DNA from: Sphingobium sp. TKS
GTDB taxonomy: Bacteria; Pseudomonadota; Alphaproteobacteria; Sphingomonadales; Sphingomonadaceae
Direction of reading: 5' to 3'
Length of the DNA stretch: 64,000 bases
NCBI RefSeq assembly: GCF_001563265.1
Contig: NZ_CP005083.1
Coordinates: forward strand, 3,599,001 to 3,663,000
The position numbers were made by a program, and so were the translations under genes. Under the pieces are notes generated by a model, which was not told where the DNA came from, searched no databases, and saw only the letters and a list, made by a program, of their open reading frames with translations. Of the stretch, positions 7,923-46,948 are shown piece by piece. Positions within the stretch are counted from its first letter, which is position 1. Every line of letters begins with the position of its first letter.

Positions 7923-7989
7923 GGCCTTTCTATGTCGTGCGTCAACCGGCCGGGCAACAGGCGACTTGATGCATGCGCCGCTCCCCGGA

Positions 7990-8037
7990 CATTTTAGCTG
8001 ATCTCAGATGTTTCCTCTCCCCGGGAAAATGCTCTAG
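7990..8037 (+). promoter_or_regulatory. Palindromic start-proximal element before ubiE
   Basis: The arm ACATTTT (7990-7996) and the arm AAAATGCTCTAG (8026-8037) face each other, with CTCAG between them. The right arm ends 11 nt before the ubiE ATG at 8049. Matching elements precede nadE, hisN and the second exbD at the same spacing. TGCTCTAG may be an extended -10 hexamer, or the TAGAG may serve as a weak ribosome binding site. Confidence 0.55.
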
Positions 8038-8048
8038 AGCGTGCGCCC

Positions 8049-8780
8049 ATGAGTGAAACCGCTTCCTTTGGCTATCGCGATGTCGAAGCCACCGACAAAC
8101 AGGGGATGGTCCGCGCCGTCTTCTCCAACGTGGCGTCCAAATATGACCTGATGAACGACGCCATGTCGGCGGGCGCTCATCGGTTGTGGAAGGACCAGTT
8201 CGTCAATCGCGTGAAGCCACGGCGGGACGAGCAGATCCTCGACATGGCGGGCGGCACCGGGGACATTGCTTTTCGGATGCACAAGCATGGCGCGCAGGTC
8301 ACGGTGTCGGACATCAACCCCGAAATGCTGGCCGTGGGCGTCGAGCGGGCACAGAAGAAAGGCTATGAAGGGCTGATCTGGTCGGAGCAGAATGCGGAAG
8401 TGTTGAGCTTCGGGGAACGCGCTTTCGACGCTTATACGATCGCGTTCGGCATCCGCAATGTGACGCACATCGACAAGGCGCTGCGGGAAGCGCATCGGGT
8501 GCTGAAATTTGGCGGGCGCTTCTTCTGCCTCGAATTTTCCACCACGACCTGGCCGGGCTTTTCCGATGTCTATGACGTCTATTCGCATCGGCTGGTGCCC
8601 AAGCTCGGCAAGCTGCTGGCGGACGATGAGGACAGCTATCGTTACCTGATCGAATCGATCCGGCGCTTCCCGCCCATGCCGGAGTTCGAGCGGATGATCC
8701 GGGAAGCCGGGTTCGTGCAGACCAAGGTCGAGCCGATTCTCGGCGGGCTGGTCGCAATCCATAGCGGCTGGAAGATTTGA
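8049..8780 (+). CDS. ubiE: Ubiquinone/menaquinone methyltransferase UbiE
   Basis: SAM-dependent C-methyltransferase of ubiquinone biosynthesis acting on the benzoquinol ring. The 243 residues contain SAM motif I as ILDMAGGTGDIAFRM near 62, the NPEMLAVG post-motif, the family block AFGIRNVTHIDKAL, and the C-terminal YRYLIESIRRFP and PILGGLVAIHSGWKI. The start codon follows the palindromic element by 11 nt. ubiB follows in the same orientation, so the pair may act as a ubiquinone operon interrupted by a repeat. Confidence 0.97.
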   Translation: MSETASFGYRDVEATDKQGMVRAVFSNVASKYDLMNDAMSAGAHRLWKDQFVNRVKPRRDEQILDMAGGTGDIAFRMHKHGAQVTVSDINPEMLAVGVERAQKKGYEGLIWSEQNAEVLSFGERAFDAYTIAFGIRNVTHIDKALREAHRVLKFGGRFFCLEFSTTTWPGFSDVYDVYSHRLVPKLGKLLADDEDSYRYLIESIRRFPPMPEFERMIREAGFVQTKVEPILGGLVAIHSGWKI

Positions 8781-32736: not shown

Positions 32737-32805
32737 CGCGATCCGGGTGGGACCGGATTATATGACACCGAGATTTCGGCGTCGTGCAATGTTCCATTTC
32801 TCGCG

Positions 32806-32817
32806 AAATCCCTTTAG
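32806..32817 (+). promoter_or_regulatory. Weak variant of the start-proximal element before the ABC exporter
   Basis: AAATCCCTTTAG ends 11 nt before the chosen ATG at 32829, the same spacing as the stronger elements at ubiE, nadE, hisN and exbD. A short inverted repeat ATTTC/GAAAT precedes it. The match is partial. Confidence 0.35.
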
Positions 32818-32828
32818 AGCCCGGCGCC

Positions 32829-34616
32829 ATGGAGGATGTGGAACAACCATCGCCGCGCGGCAGCGCGCGCCCCGCACTTGGCAGCCTGGCGATGATCTGG
32901 CGTTTCGCCAGCCGCTATCCGGGCCGCATTGCCGGGGCGATGGCCGCCCTGATCGTCTCGTCCGCCGCGACGCTGGCGATCCCCAGCGGTTTCCGGCTGG
33001 TCATCGACCGGGGCTTCATGGGCGGCGGGGACATCAGCCGCTGGTTCGAATATCTGTTCCTGATCGTCGCGATCCTGGCATTGGCCACGGCGGCGCGCTT
33101 CTATTTCGTGTCCTGGCTGGGCGAACGCGTCGTCGCGGACATCCGGTCGGCCACCCAGGCCAATCTGCTGCGGCAGGAACCGCGCTTCTTCGAGGAAAAC
33201 CGCCCCTCCGAAATCGCATCCCGCATGACCGCCGACACGGCTATCATCGACCAGGTGGTGGGCTCGACCGTGTCGATCGCACTACGCAATCTGGTGACGG
33301 GCACCGGCGGGCTCATCTATCTCTTCGCCCTGGCGCCCAAGCTCGCCGGACTGCTGCTGCTCGGCATTCCCGTCATATTGGTCGCGATCGTCGGTCTGGG
33401 ACGCCGCGTGCGCGCGTTGTCGCGGGCGAGCCAGGACCGGCTGGCCGATGTCGGCAGCGTCACCTCGGAAACCCTGGGCGCGATGAAGATCGTCCAGGCT
33501 TTCGGCCAGGAAGGCCGGGAAGCAGCGCGGTTCGACACGACCGTCGAGGCGGGCTTCACGACCGCAAGGCGGCGGATCGCCCTGCGCGCAGCGATGACGG
33601 CGATCGTCATCGCTCTGGTCTTCGGATCGATCACCGCGGTCATGTGGCAGGGTGCGCTGGACGTCGCCGCCGGACGCCTGTCGGGCGGCAGCATCGCCGC
33701 TTTCGTCCTGACCGGCGGCCTCGTCGCGGGCGCGTTCGGCGCGCTGTCCGAAACCTGGGGCGACCTGCTGCGCGGCGCGGGGGCAGCCGGACGGCTGCAT
33801 GAACTGATGATCGCGACGCCGCAGATCATGGCTCCGCCCCGCCCCGTTCCAGTGCCGCGAACCGAGCATGGCGCGCATCTCCAGTTCGAGGATGTGCATT
33901 TCCGTTACCCCACCCGGCCCGATCAGGCGGCCCTGCACGGCATTTCGATCGACATCGCGCCGGGCGAAACCGTCGCGATCGTCGGCCCGTCCGGCGCGGG
34001 AAAATCGACCCTGATCCAGTTGACGCTGCGCTTCTACGATCCGGATTCGGGTGTGATCCGCCTGAACGGCGTGCCTTTGCCTCAGGCCGATCCAGCGGCG
34101 GTGCGCGACATGATGGCGATGGTGCCGCAGGAAAGCATCATCTTCGCCGCGTCGGCGCGGGACAATCTGCGCTACGGACGATGGGACGCCAGCGACGACC
34201 AGATCTGGGCAGCGGCCCGCGCCGCCAATGCGGAAGCTTTTCTGCGCACCCTTCCAGAAGGCCTCGACAGTTTTCTGGGCGAAGGCGGCGCCCGGCTTTC
34301 AGGGGGCCAGCGCCAACGCCTTTCGATCGCCCGCGCACTGCTGCGCGACGCGCCGATCCTGCTGCTGGACGAAGCAACCTCCGCGCTGGATGCCGAATCG
34401 GAGCGGCTGGTGCAGGACGCGCTGGGGCGGCTGATGCAGGGCCGCACGACCATCGTCATCGCCCATCGCCTGGCGACGGTCAGGGCAGCGGATCGCATCC
34501 TGGTGCTCGATGAAGGGCGGCTGGTCGAACAGGGCGATCATGCCACGCTGATGGGGAAAAAGGGTCTCTACGCCCGGCTGGCCAATCTCCAGTTTCAGGA
34601 TGCGCCTGCGGCCTGA
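32829..34616 (+). CDS. ABC exporter, fused permease and ATPase
   Basis: A 595-residue half-transporter: six transmembrane helices in residues 20-320, followed by the nucleotide-binding domain with Walker A GPSGAGKST near 386, signature LSGGQRQRLSIARALL, Walker B ILLLDEATSALD and the H-loop IVIAHRLATV. It forms a homodimer and exports a lipid, drug or peptide that the sequence does not reveal. An ATG at 32784 is possible, but ATG 32829 gives the natural N-terminus. Confidence 0.92.
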   Translation: MEDVEQPSPRGSARPALGSLAMIWRFASRYPGRIAGAMAALIVSSAATLAIPSGFRLVIDRGFMGGGDISRWFEYLFLIVAILALATAARFYFVSWLGERVVADIRSATQANLLRQEPRFFEENRPSEIASRMTADTAIIDQVVGSTVSIALRNLVTGTGGLIYLFALAPKLAGLLLLGIPVILVAIVGLGRRVRALSRASQDRLADVGSVTSETLGAMKIVQAFGQEGREAARFDTTVEAGFTTARRRIALRAAMTAIVIALVFGSITAVMWQGALDVAAGRLSGGSIAAFVLTGGLVAGAFGALSETWGDLLRGAGAAGRLHELMIATPQIMAPPRPVPVPRTEHGAHLQFEDVHFRYPTRPDQAALHGISIDIAPGETVAIVGPSGAGKSTLIQLTLRFYDPDSGVIRLNGVPLPQADPAAVRDMMAMVPQESIIFAASARDNLRYGRWDASDDQIWAAARAANAEAFLRTLPEGLDSFLGEGGARLSGGQRQRLSIARALLRDAPILLLDEATSALDAESERLVQDALGRLMQGRTTIVIAHRLATVRAADRILVLDEGRLVEQGDHATLMGKKGLYARLANLQFQDAPAA

Positions 34617-35967: not shown

Positions 35968-37629
35968 TTACAACGTCCGGAAGGCGTTGGTGATCGGATA
36001 GCGGCGGTCGCGGCCGAAATTGCGCATGCCAAGCTTCACGCCGGGGGGCGACTGGCGGCGCTTATATTCGGCCACGTAGAGCAGACGTTCGATGCGGGCG
36101 ACGGTATCACGGTCGAAGCCACGGGCGACGAGTTGTTCGACCGATAATTCCTCTTCCACCAGGCCGTAGAGGATCGGGTCCAGCAGCTCATAGGGGGGCA
36201 GGCTGTCCTCATCCTTCTGATTGTCGCGCAGTTCGGCGCTGGGCGGCTTGGTGATGACGCGCTCCGGCATGACCGGACCCTTGGAACCTAGGCCCAAGCC
36301 CAGCGACGGCACATTCTCGTTGCGCCAGCGGCAGAGGTCGAACACCGTGGTCTTATAGGCGTCCTTGAGCACCGAATAACCGCCCGCCATGTCGCCATAA
36401 ATGGTGGCATAGCCGACCGACATCTCGCTCTTGTTGCCGGTGGTCAGCAGCATATGGCCGAATTTGTTGGACAGGCCCATCAGCGTAAGCCCACGAATGC
36501 GGGACTGGATATTTTCTTCGGTGAGGTCGCGCTGGCGGCCGGTGAAGACATCGGCCAGCATGGAATCGAAGGCTTCCACCGCCGGTTCGATCGGAATGGT
36601 GTCATAACGAACGCCGAGCAGCCGGGCGCATTCTACCGCATCGTCCAGACTTTCCTGACTGGTGAAGCGCGACGGCATCATCACGCACCAGACGCGATCG
36701 GCGCCCAGCGCATCCACGGCGACAGCGGCGGACAAGGCGGAATCGATGCCGCCGGACAGGCCGAGGACCACGCCCGGGAAACGGTTCTTGTTCACATAGT
36801 CGCGCAAGCCGAGAACCATGGCGTTATAGATGTCGGCCGGGCGCTCATCGAGGATATGCCGCTCGCCGGGCAGGCAGACCCACTGGCCTTCCCATTTTTC
36901 CCAGTTGGTGAGGACCAGGGCTTCTTCCCAGTCGGGGAGCTGCTGGGCAAGGCTGAGATCGCCGTTCATCACGAAGGACGCGCCGTCGAACGCCAGCTCA
37001 TCCTGGCCGCCGACGCGGTTCAGATAGATGAGCGGCAAGCCCGTTTCGCGGACGCGCGTGCCGGCCACGGCGTTGATGCGGCGGTCATCCTTGTCGACCT
37101 CGAACGGGCTGCCATTGGGGCTGATCAGGATTTCAGCGCCCTCCGCCCGCAGATGCGCGGTGACGAAGGGGAACCAGATATCCTCGCAAATGGGGACGCC
37201 GATCTTGACGCCCCGGAAGTCGATCGGCGCGGGCAGCGGACCGGGGGCGAAGAGGCGCTTTTCATCGAAGGTGCCGTAATTGGGCAGTTCGCGCTTCTGG
37301 CGGATGGCGGTGACGGCGCCATTTTCCAACAGGGCGACGACGTTGAAAAGGACGCCCTGCGAGGCGACGACCGTGCCCACCAGCATGGCCGGGCCGCCAT
37401 CTGCGGTCGCCTGGGCCAGGCGGTCGAGTTCATGGTTGGCGCGGTCGACCAGAGCGGGCTTCAGCACCAGATCCTCAGGCGGATAGCCGATCAGTTGCAG
37501 TTCGGGATAGACGATGAGGTCAGCATCCATGGCGCGGGCGCGCCATTCCAGCATCGCATCGGCATTGGCGGACAAGTCGCCCACCGACTGCGTCATCTGG
37601 GCAAGGGCTATCACGAGTTTGTCGGTCAT
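35968..37629 (-). CDS. nadE: Glutamine-dependent NAD+ synthetase
   Basis: Last step of NAD synthesis: amidation of deamido-NAD with glutamine. The 553 residues combine an N-terminal nitrilase-type glutaminase domain (ALAQMTQSVGDL; Glu in YPELQLIGYPPEDL; Lys in YGTFDEKRLF; Cys in GVPICEDIWF) with a C-terminal synthetase carrying the ATP loop LGLSGGIDSALSA. The start is ATG 37629. An extension to 37665 reads through the palindromic element. gltX follows 5 nt downstream. Confidence 0.96.
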   Translation of the reverse strand: MTDKLVIALAQMTQSVGDLSANADAMLEWRARAMDADLIVYPELQLIGYPPEDLVLKPALVDRANHELDRLAQATADGGPAMLVGTVVASQGVLFNVVALLENGAVTAIRQKRELPNYGTFDEKRLFAPGPLPAPIDFRGVKIGVPICEDIWFPFVTAHLRAEGAEILISPNGSPFEVDKDDRRINAVAGTRVRETGLPLIYLNRVGGQDELAFDGASFVMNGDLSLAQQLPDWEEALVLTNWEKWEGQWVCLPGERHILDERPADIYNAMVLGLRDYVNKNRFPGVVLGLSGGIDSALSAAVAVDALGADRVWCVMMPSRFTSQESLDDAVECARLLGVRYDTIPIEPAVEAFDSMLADVFTGRQRDLTEENIQSRIRGLTLMGLSNKFGHMLLTTGNKSEMSVGYATIYGDMAGGYSVLKDAYKTTVFDLCRWRNENVPSLGLGLGSKGPVMPERVITKPPSAELRDNQKDEDSLPPYELLDPILYGLVEEELSVEQLVARGFDRDTVARIERLLYVAEYKRRQSPPGVKLGMRNFGRDRRYPITNAFRTL

Positions 37630-37640
37630 GAGGAGCGCCC

Positions 37641-37673
37641 CTAGAGCATTTTGGCCGTGAGCCAAAATGCTCT
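37641..37673 (-). promoter_or_regulatory. Palindromic start-proximal element before nadE
   Basis: Read toward nadE: AGAGCATTTTGGC, a 5-nt loop, GCCAAAATGCTCTAG, and then the ATG 11 nt later. A second, looser inverted pair with the same GCATTTT/AAAATGC wording lies at 37687-37735, so the element may be duplicated in this divergent nadE-prs gap. Confidence 0.6.
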
Positions 37674-37752
37674 GTCATTTGTTGCCGCATTTTCAAACCC
37701 GATGCCCCGTTTCAGGACCGTTCTAAAAATGCTCGGGTTCATTTTGCCGCGA

Positions 37753-39583: not shown

Positions 39584-39662
39584 CTTTTCCTTCCTTCATT
39601 TTAAAGGAATCGGGCGGGATTAACCTAACCTTTCCGTCCCTTTGCCGCGATATTTGTTTTCC

Positions 39663-39711
39663 GCATTTTCTTGGGCCGTCAGGCGTTCCGCCCGACTTGA
39701 AAATGCTTTAG
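39663..39711 (+). promoter_or_regulatory. Palindromic start-proximal element before the hisN-like gene
   Basis: GCATTTTC (39663-39670) and GAAAATGC (39699-39706) are perfect inverted copies around GGGCCGTCAGGCG. The right arm continues as TTTAG and ends 10 nt before ATG 39722. The middle GGCCGTCAG also occurs, in gene orientation, in the element before the second exbD. Confidence 0.65.
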
Positions 39712-39721
39712 GTCGAGGCGC

Positions 39722-40507
39722 ATGACGACCCGCGATGACCTGACCCTTGCCAACCGCCTTGCCGACGCTGCCGGTGCGGCGATCCGCCCTTTTTTCCGTG
39801 CCCGCTACGACATGGAATTCAAATCCGACAAGTCGCCCGTGACCGAGGCCGACCGCGCCGCGGAAGCGGCGATCCGGACGATATTGGAAAAGGAACGGCC
39901 GCAGGACGGCATCATCGGAGAGGAATATGGCGCGACGCGCGAGGATGCGGAACGGGTGTGGATACTCGATCCGATCGACGGGACGCGCAGCTTCATCGCC
40001 GGTCGGCCGATTTTCGGGACGTTGGTGGCGCTGACCCAGGCGGGTTGGCCGACCATCGGCATCATCGACCAGCCGATCGCCGGAGAGCGCTGGGCAGGGA
40101 TGATGGGGCAGCCGACCACCTTCAACGGCAAGCCGGTGACGACGCGGGCGTGCCGGGGTCTGGATCAGGCGATCCTGGCTTCAACCGCGCCGCAGCTTTT
40201 CCCCGGCTGCACCGCCGAGCATTTCTCCCGGCTGGCGGGACAGTGCCGGGACACGGTCTGGGGCGGCGATTGCTATAATTACGGGCTGATCGCCTCTGGT
40301 CATGTCGATATCGTCGTCGAGGCGGGATTGAAATTGCACGACATTGCCGCGCTGGTGCCGGTGGTCGAGGGCGCGGGCGGGCGCATGTGCGATTGGGCGG
40401 GCGATCCGTTGACGCACGACAGCGCCGGGCAGGTGATCGCGCTGGGCGATCCGGCCCGGCTGGACGATGTGCTGGAGGCGCTGGCTGAGGGGCATGAGGG
40501 CCATTAA
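39722..40507 (+). CDS. Inositol-monophosphatase-family enzyme, probably histidinol-phosphatase HisN
   Basis: A 261-residue Mg-dependent phosphatase. Metal motifs are DGIIGEEYG, WILDPIDGTRSFIAGRPIFG (DPxDGT) and GGDCYNYGLIASGHVDIVVEAGLKLHDIAALVPVVEGAGG. The RSFI and FGTL context suggests HisN-type histidinol-phosphate phosphatase over SuhB or CysQ, but substrate is not proven. Its ATG follows the palindromic element by 10 nt. Confidence 0.85.
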   Translation: MTTRDDLTLANRLADAAGAAIRPFFRARYDMEFKSDKSPVTEADRAAEAAIRTILEKERPQDGIIGEEYGATREDAERVWILDPIDGTRSFIAGRPIFGTLVALTQAGWPTIGIIDQPIAGERWAGMMGQPTTFNGKPVTTRACRGLDQAILASTAPQLFPGCTAEHFSRLAGQCRDTVWGGDCYNYGLIASGHVDIVVEAGLKLHDIAALVPVVEGAGGRMCDWAGDPLTHDSAGQVIALGDPARLDDVLEALAEGHEGH

Positions 40508-41268: not shown

Positions 41269-41691
41269 TTAGAACTTGCCGTACTGTTCGTTGCCGACGA
41301 AGCCGAGCTTCGTCACGCCAGCACGCTTGATCTCCGCCAACACCTGGTCGACCACGACATAGCGGGTCGCCGCATTGGGCTGGAACTGCAGTTCGGGTTC
41401 GACCGGCAACCGCAGCGACTGCTGCAGATACTGACGCAGGGTCAGCAGGTCGATGGCCGAACCGTTCCAGGTGATGATGCCGCTGGGATCGATAGCCACC
41501 TTGTTCTTGACAGGGTCAATGACGCTGTCGGTCGGCGGCGCGTTCTGCGGCAGGTCGATCTTGACCGCGTGGGTCTGGATCGGGATGGTGATGATGAACA
41601 TGATGAGGAGAACGAGCATGACGTCGATAAGCGGCGTCGTGTTCATTTCCACCATCGGTTCGCCATCGTCTCTTCCGGCACTCATTGCCAT
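41269..41691 (-). CDS. exbD: ExbD-type biopolymer transport protein (second copy)
   Basis: A 140-residue protein with a cytoplasmic N-terminus, one transmembrane helix (TPLIDVMLVLLIMFIITIPI) carrying the conserved Asp, and a periplasmic domain with ITWNGSAIDLLTLRQYLQ and YVVVDQVLAEIKRAGVTKLGFVG. ExbD couples the proton gradient to TonB. It starts 80 nt after the first exbD stops, with the palindromic element between them. Confidence 0.93.
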   Translation of the reverse strand: MAMSAGRDDGEPMVEMNTTPLIDVMLVLLIMFIITIPIQTHAVKIDLPQNAPPTDSVIDPVKNKVAIDPSGIITWNGSAIDLLTLRQYLQQSLRLPVEPELQFQPNAATRYVVVDQVLAEIKRAGVTKLGFVGNEQYGKF

Positions 41692-41701
41692 GGCGATACT
41701 C

Positions 41702-41752
41702 CTAGAGCATTTTCAACAATGGTCGTCTGACGGCCATTCGGTTCGAAAATGC
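41702..41752 (-). promoter_or_regulatory. Palindromic start-proximal element before the second exbD
   Basis: Read toward exbD: GCATTTTC, then GGCCGTCAG within the arms AATGG/CCATT, then GAAAATGCTCTAGG, ending 10 nt before ATG 41691. The AGGAG inside TAGGAG could also serve as ribosome binding site. Its position inside the operon allows an internal promoter. Confidence 0.6.
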
Positions 41753-41771
41753 GTCAACAAAGGACATTAAC

Positions 41772-46424: not shown

Positions 46425-46736
46425 TCAGTCCAGCCCGAAACTCCGCGCCAGCGTTTGTTCGATCGGCTCGCCAAGCCGAAAGATCCGACGATTGGCGCGC
46501 TTGGGGCAATTCATATTGCCGATGATCCGGCATGGCCGCGCATCGAAGCGATAGGCATTCATCTTGCCATCACCGCCCGGCGCGACGCTGCTGCCGAGGC
46601 GCGGTCCTTCCGTCTCCCCGCCCCCCAGGCAGAGCGACGGCACGGCCTGACAGGGCGCCGGACGGACCTTGCCGATCCGGCGCGTGACGCCTTCGGGTTG
46701 AGCGGCAAGGCTGGCGGCAATCAGCAGGAAGATCAT
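46425..46736 (-). CDS. Small exported hypothetical protein with four cysteines
   Basis: A 103-residue protein with a short signal-like N-terminus (MIFLLIAASLAAQ) and a basic mature part with two cysteine pairs (APCQAVPSLCLGG and RPCRIIGNMNCPK). No family recognised. It ends 4 nt from the convergent hom stop. Codon pattern looks genuine, but with no homology to cite this is a moderate call. Confidence 0.5.
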   Translation of the reverse strand: MIFLLIAASLAAQPEGVTRRIGKVRPAPCQAVPSLCLGGGETEGPRLGSSVAPGGDGKMNAYRFDARPCRIIGNMNCPKRANRRIFRLGEPIEQTLARSFGLD

Positions 46737-46948
46737 TTGCGCGGCCCTTGAGCGATTCCGACCGGCCGGAATCGATCGCCGGTCAAGAAATCGCGTAAAA
46801 TCAAAGAAACGGAGCGGTTCTTGCTCTTGTTATCCTGCGAACGTGACAAACGTGCTTCCGTTGCATGGGCCTGCTGAAAAGCGCACCCTCGACAAGGATC
46901 GGCCGACATCCTATCGCGCTTCACAATAGCGATAGAAGAGGAAACGAC

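Follow-up and report, generated by a model that had tools for sequence, protein, structure and literature searches.

Several families of small dispersed repeats and of insertion sequences resemble the element considered here. The Caulobacter CcrM-associated intergenic repeats (CIR; Chen and Shapiro 2003, via excerpts of the review PMC2229807) are about 110 bp long, consist of two inverted-repeat arms and a linker, and occur in many alphaproteobacterial copies; in the same excerpts, the mechanism of their mobility is said to need more information. The RUP element of Streptococcus pneumoniae (excerpts of PMC2229807) has 107 bp, ends similar to those of the IS630 family and a TA target. The Correia elements of Neisseria are small mobile repeats, often located before genes, which can supply promoters and for which promoters of their own have been reported (excerpts of PMC10969869 and PMC2229807). 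ISY100 follows a TA duplication rule, and the preferential transposition of IS630 to the TA in 5'-CTAG-3' is announced in the title of Tenzen and Ohtsubo 1991, cited in PMC2170065 (consulted in part). Palindromic REPs tagged with GTAG/CGTC are found in alphaproteobacteria too (excerpts of PMC3733652). In related bacteria, leaderless mRNAs number 375 in Caulobacter and 171 in S. meliloti (excerpts of PMC4117421 and PMC3616915, respectively).

The element of Sphingobium sp. TKS is likened to CIR by its anatomy, not by its sequence: its full copies are two-hairpin composites of 107 bp, many of them contain GANTC as CIR do, and, whereas the excerpts on CIR leave the question of mobility to further information, CTAG/TA-like junctions and a candidate IS630-type partner are seen here. 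It has the length of RUP, and would have IS630-like ends and a TA target as RUP does, a comparison made by description and across different hosts, and the excerpts of PMC2229807 do not mention landing in a promoter box for RUP. IS630 and ISY100 are autonomous, whereas the Sphingobium element is geneless; TA duplication would be common to both. Contrary to the Correia elements, which are reported to have their own promoters, it is the native -10 box that is apparently rebuilt at the junction. The tag of the GTAG/CGTC REPs differs from CTAG, and the text of PMC3733652 contains no word beginning with CTAG or Sphingo. No description of this element in Sphingobium was recognised in open-licence literature listings. 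The kind of element is already known; what would be new is a landing that rebuilds a promoter box. We consider it likely that the element is a MITE of the IS630/Tc1-mariner type with a CIR-like two-hairpin anatomy, lodged in a CTAG that would be a native -10 box, and that its end rebuilds the core of the promoter.

The window, i.e. the 64,000-nucleotide stretch of DNA that was analysed (C1:3599001-3663000), had been the subject of a sequence-only reading, which noticed the same motif just before four unrelated genes. Exact copies of AAAATGCTYTAG do occur at 8026-8037 (+) before ubiE, 37641-37652 (-) before nadE, 39700-39711 (+) before hisN and 41702-41713 (-) before the second exbD, and the gaps to the ATG are those that had been given (11, 11, 10 and 10 nt). 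The whole genome (6,228,879 bases, 11 contigs) contains five exact matches, four of them inside the window, and none of the reversed control pattern; the fifth, at C1:1721530, has the ATG of a CrcB-family gene (PF02537) 10 nt downstream, and in the genome-wide check of spacing that had been proposed, all five copies end 10-11 nt before an ATG. When two mismatches are allowed, the window alone gives six matches for 3.0 expected from shuffles, which is not unusual, so that the evidence rests on exact matches, the genome-wide count and position. Four of the five exact motifs fall within 34 kb, a grouping that is outside what the MITE reading accounts for.

The inverted GCATTTT arm upstream of the motif, which had also been reported, is a perfect 7-nt arm at hisN and exbD, where GGCCGTCAG is shared as claimed; at ubiE it reads ACATTTT, as described, and the outermost pair is broken. 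At nadE, a short hairpin (37644-37672) adjoins a second, full palindrome (37687-37732). AAAATGCTYTAG is one end of a dispersed palindrome at nadE, hisN and exbD, and of a degenerate copy at ubiE.

The pattern GCATTTTN{15,40}AAAATGC retrieves 14 palindromes genome-wide, all of 42-46 bp, most of which contain further complementary sequence inside, and its control retrieves none. Eight of these 14 exact-arm palindromes lie within 100 kb (C1:3593184-3692779, which spans the window), including two close pairs. When 34 copies are aligned, they form a two-part hairpin whose bulge is asymmetric, preceded on the left by a conserved T-rich flank (TTnnTTGnC) and ending on the right in GCTCTAG. Two-sided changes are seen in 10 of its 17 pairs; the outer arms are invariant, since identity in these arms was the criterion by which the copies had been chosen. 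In copies found later, these arms vary too, with compensation (GCATTTT, GCGTTTT, GCGATTT, GTGATTT). Recent full copies are 107-bp composites bounded by CTAG, in the order CTAG, hairpin A, second CTAG, T-rich 14-nt linker, hairpin B, CTAG. The element is short, dispersed and geneless, as expected of a MITE. Hairpin A has 13 matches in the own genome (with at most three mismatches), 12 of which adjoin a listed hairpin B and one a truncated B. GANTC occurs anywhere in hairpin A in 22 of 37 copies (4.8 expected from shuffles) and anywhere in hairpin B in 33 of 103 (16.8 expected).

Some copies of hairpin B are longer by about 21 nt (89 vs 68 nt), with the same insert in three places (for example C1:911451, C2:253954 and C1:2388612). 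In 33 of 103 copies, a TTCC in the loop ends 17 nt from the end of the stem, which is the spacing of a -35 to CTCTAG and is possibly due to chance. A scan of eight loci with Rfam matched no family to the element and returned one sub-threshold match elsewhere in L049.

The bases at the junctions agree with a C-TA-G target whose TA is duplicated, the flanks being CTAG or close variants: on the left, C precedes TAGAG in 27 of 37 copies, and on the right, where 82 of 103 copies have TYTA, it is followed by G in 65 of them. The genome contains seven matches to DDE_3 (PF13358), six of them above the cut-off. Two elements with this domain, L254 and L255, have TAGAGCGGTTTCC as inverted ends; the junctions are CTAG at either end of L255, and TTAG and CTAG at those of L254. 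L255 shares 96.5% identity with a region that is annotated, on a plasmid of S. yanoikuyae, as IS630 family transposase. Two other DDE_3 elements (L256 and L257) have different ends and are likewise framed by CTAG. The A end of the repeat starts with GAGC, as do the ends of the IS630-family element in the same genome, the match being partial in most copies; in a shuffle test of the ends, no more than 2 of 200 shuffles did as well for 13 of 116 end pairs. An exact match to the 11-nt GAGCGGTTTCC is found in hairpin A of L353 and L360 only, and our confidence in the MITE reading is slightly lowered because these two copies look like one orthologous locus.

A different transposase has to be considered, since a conserved tetranucleotide adjoining a hairpin and composites of two hairpins are also what is expected of REP/BIME-type repeats, which would be moved by a RAYT (Y1) transposase, CTAG being the tetranucleotide beside the hairpin. 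However, Y1_Tnp (PF01797) has no match at E<=0.001 either in the own genome or in G020, whose copies are near-identical, and no element lies beside ten Y1 loci from elsewhere (L130-L139, nine from Sphingobium and one other), where a single partial match of 9 bits (E=1, at L139) was obtained. We rejected a RAYT/REP origin on these two grounds and consider it unlikely.

Regarding the distribution of the MITE, as we read it, a covariance model reports at least 45 rows in the own genome, at least 41 of them at E<0.01, on C1, C2 and C3; such counts are lower bounds, 150 of 3210 own-genome candidates having been scored. The own genome carries about 40 copies, again as a lower bound. At least one copy is present in at least 91 of 94 Sphingobium genomes, and the richest contains at least 51. 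Among 385 alphaproteobacterial genomes, 13, including the own one, match a pattern of spacer plus CTAG; single matches mean little because the reversed control matches once in each of 14 genomes. Five genomes have two matches or more (own genome 8, G504 20, G354 5, G244 4 and G394 2), and the same plan of hairpin, linker, CTAG and hairpin is seen among the loci read in L268, L275, other loci of G504, L265 and L267, while the others look like chance. G504 belongs to another alphaproteobacterial family; those of its 20 matches that were read are near-identical repeats with the two-hairpin plan.

The sites occupied by the element can be compared with the corresponding sites of relatives. Whether the element is present or absent, CTAG lies between -17 and -7 at 30 of 30 ubiE loci (own genome included; the best 30 loci of 61 genomes), 25 of 39 nadE loci and 30 of 44 hisN loci; the remaining 14 nadE and 14 hisN loci of relatives do not have it there. 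The nadE and hisN counts are for relatives' loci, mostly from Sphingobium, for which protein identity reaches at least 74% and the upstream sequence is long enough. The hairpin test that accompanied the counts (8-nt arms, at most one mismatch) misses the degenerate ubiE copies. In many element-free relatives, nadE is preceded by TTTTGCGC and then, at about 10 nt from the ATG, by AAAATGCTCTAG, AAAATGGACTAG or a comparable sequence, and many relatives have CGCTAGG at the corresponding position of hisN. The -10-like CTAG predates the insertions at ubiE, nadE and hisN, since element-free relatives carry CTAG before these three genes. It has the appearance of a native -10 box, situated near the ATG, into which the element landed; our reading of CTAG as a putative -10 box is guided by the sigma-73 consensus of Caulobacter.

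Three pairs of empty and filled sites (L088/L087 for nadE, L050 and the window for hisN, L211/L215 for ubiE) place the element directly 5' of CTAG or TAG, and the presence of the element at a given gene differs between species. The ubiE pair is nested, the second element being inside the TCTAG of an older one. The same ubiE CTAG is abutted by three different element sequences (L211, L213 and L215), and possibly by a fourth in L234, a AACCGGTT-type element whose left flank is altered; in L237, an insert of about 84 nt occupies this CTAG, and it is not clear from its sequence that it belongs to this family. In none of the three insertions with an empty site is the left TA preserved (CCCG, CCGG, lost); the copies that have CTAG at both ends all lack a proven empty site.

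Part of the sharing of the motif is native, as seen from the nadE loci of relatives, 9 of 39 of which have AAATGCTYTAG without a hairpin. This observation and the ancestral position of CTAG would also suit an explanation by native promoters only, in which AAAATGCTYTAG is just the usual extended -10 of leaderless genes and the palindromes are a coincidence or a secondary feature, but the AAAATGC at hisN, exbD and nadE in the window is part of an element of which the genome contains about 40 relatives, and it is absent from hisN of L050 and of other relatives. We regard native promoters as very improbable as the sole explanation: the empty site of L050 contradicts them for hisN, and they may apply to ubiE.

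The copies in the window illustrate different states of what is probably the MITE. A degenerate one precedes ubiE at 7989-8032 (+; ACATTTT ... AAAATGC in the own sequence), followed by the CTAG common to the ubiE loci at 8034-8037 (+), the putative native -10 box, and by the ATG at 8049. The same degenerate block is found in nine further loci of the 30, and, older and further upstream, in L215; in the remaining ubiE loci, this CTAG either adjoins another element or stands without one. This old element retains much of its loop sequence (around GATCT and TGTTTCC) in 10 of 30 loci (L211, L212, L216-L220, L223, L224 and L233) and in L215. It may have acquired a function.

Before nadE, the composite consists of hairpin A (37644-37672, -; GAGCATTTTGGC..GCCAAAATGCTC) and of hairpin B in the opposite orientation (37687-37732, +; model match C1:3636671-3636740, 49.3 bits). 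The CTAG at 37641-37644 (-), conserved at most of the relatives' loci, is the putative native -10 box, with the ATG at 37629. The CCCG at the outer end (37734-37737, -) is read as a decayed CTAG from the comparison of the empty L088 (GGA-CTAGGG, the hyphen marking the insertion point) with L087 (GGACCCGGCATTTT..TGCTCTAGGG). Before hisN, which codes for a protein of the inositol monophosphatase family, the left linker GATATTTGTTTTCC (39649-39662, +) leads to a hairpin B (39663-39706, +; 65.6 bits) that is absent in L050; the TTTAG that follows (39707-39711, +; ATG at 39722) would be an altered target or -10 box, and L050 has CGCTAGG instead. Before the second exbD, a hairpin B (41707-41752, -; 63.7 bits) with the conserved left linker TTTGTTGAC (41753-41761, -) adjoins TCTAG (41702-41706, -), the putative -10 box, and the ATG is at 41691. 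No empty site is known for exbD: L050, the only other locus with this exbD, carries the same copy.

A weak, diverged copy (46744-46810, -; 24.6 bits) precedes a small frame (46428-46736) that has no match in Pfam. The sequence-only reading had mentioned a weaker version before the ABC exporter; the sequence is present, as an element-like remnant of uncertain status at 32772-32817 (+; GATTTCG..CGAAATC) whose TTTAG lies 11 nt before the ATG at 32829, but the covariance model does not report a copy there.

Landing in a promoter is a minority fate of the copies. In the own genome, where 43 of the 45 model rows were used (two were opposite-strand readings of listed copies) and gene starts come from a codon-score caller, not from annotation, an ATG lies exactly 14 or 15 nt from the end of the stem in 6 of 43 copies, among 17 starts spread over 0-80 nt; at the other (left) end, no ATG is closer than 25 nt. 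The statement that it is a minority fate comes from the genus, where the distance to an ATG is 14-16 nt in only 3 of 60 copies (taken from the head of the list, L311-L370, after removal of own copies and of some close to contig ends; one orthologous locus, other than ribH, accounts for seven of the 60). In 400 kb sampled evenly from C1, only one tetramer is rarer than CTAG, which has 140 sites for 1356 expected from base composition. CTAG occurs 9-12 nt before the start in 7 of 262 starts of this sample, a modest excess, for about 1.4 expected by a hand calculation from noncoding density; the sample was preferred because the CTAG peak of another count is inflated by the orthologs of nadE and hisN.

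The TAG stops embedded in CTAG may be a second safe site. The right CTAG is intact in 43 of the 60 genus copies, and in 22 of these 43 a convergent gene has its TAG stop within it, a figure that the restriction to intact CTAG may inflate and in which some loci are counted repeatedly (L338/L340; L347/L358/L359); the background, from one genome, is 12 of 140 CTAG sites in the own sample, or 12 of 92 outside coding sequence. The sole ortholog test of a landing preference for stop codons, made on ribH, does not support it: of 30 loci (L371 being the filled one, and L398 dropped as its frame ended early), the 28 others end with 19 TGA, 6 TAA and 3 TAG, one of them in CTAG. This preference was not retained.

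The operator of a shared regulator that the sequence-only reading had proposed, i.e. a protein binding the GCATTTT/AAAATGC dyad over the -10 and co-regulating the genes, could draw on the perfect 7-nt arms at hisN and exbD and on the fixed place over a putative -10 at several genes, but we rejected it, as very improbable, because relatives without the dyad at the same genes retain CTAG, the arms, inner ones included, occur in compensated versions, and in 37 of 43 own copies no ATG stands at a distance of 14-15 nt.

Of the options in that reading, a promoter-carrying mobile repeat comes closest: the repeat is dispersed, and its right end together with CTAG gives TGCTYTAG at a -10-like distance. 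However, CTAG is older than the insertions, and the element seems to target and rebuild the box rather than to bring a whole promoter. In the mechanism that we propose for the MITE, an IS630-type transposase would move the element in trans. It would cut at C^TA^G and duplicate TA, and the terminal G and C of the element would thereby restore CTAG on both sides. The CTAG located about 10 nt before the ATG would be the -10 box of leaderless or very short-leader promoters, and very short leaders fit the spacing observed in the sequences. Insertion would displace the -35 region and rebuild an extended -10 (TGCTCTAG). No -35 was clearly recognised in the filled promoters. Such insertions would be tolerated, the end of the element becoming a working promoter core of unrelated housekeeping genes. 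Several copies now look like the upstream part of apparent -10 boxes of housekeeping genes, and, because the ends of the element would restore CTAG, the genes that have it in their promoter box can probably still be switched on.

More tentatively, with a little less than an even chance in our opinion, this would be a transposon family whose CTAG target coincides with the -10 box of its host and whose ends restore that box. Each insertion would exchange what lies upstream in a promoter and leave the core in place, and in this way housekeeping genes would be rewired again and again across the genus without being inactivated. If our reading is true, it would explain how CTAG, a rare tetranucleotide, can serve as a safe landing site, and it would suggest a mechanism for the mobility of CIR-like repeats, a point left open in the excerpts of PMC2229807. 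It would also make ubiE, nadE and hisN cases in which the upstream half of a promoter has been replaced naturally and repeatedly, and it makes the -10 code of the short-leader genes of sphingomonads directly testable.
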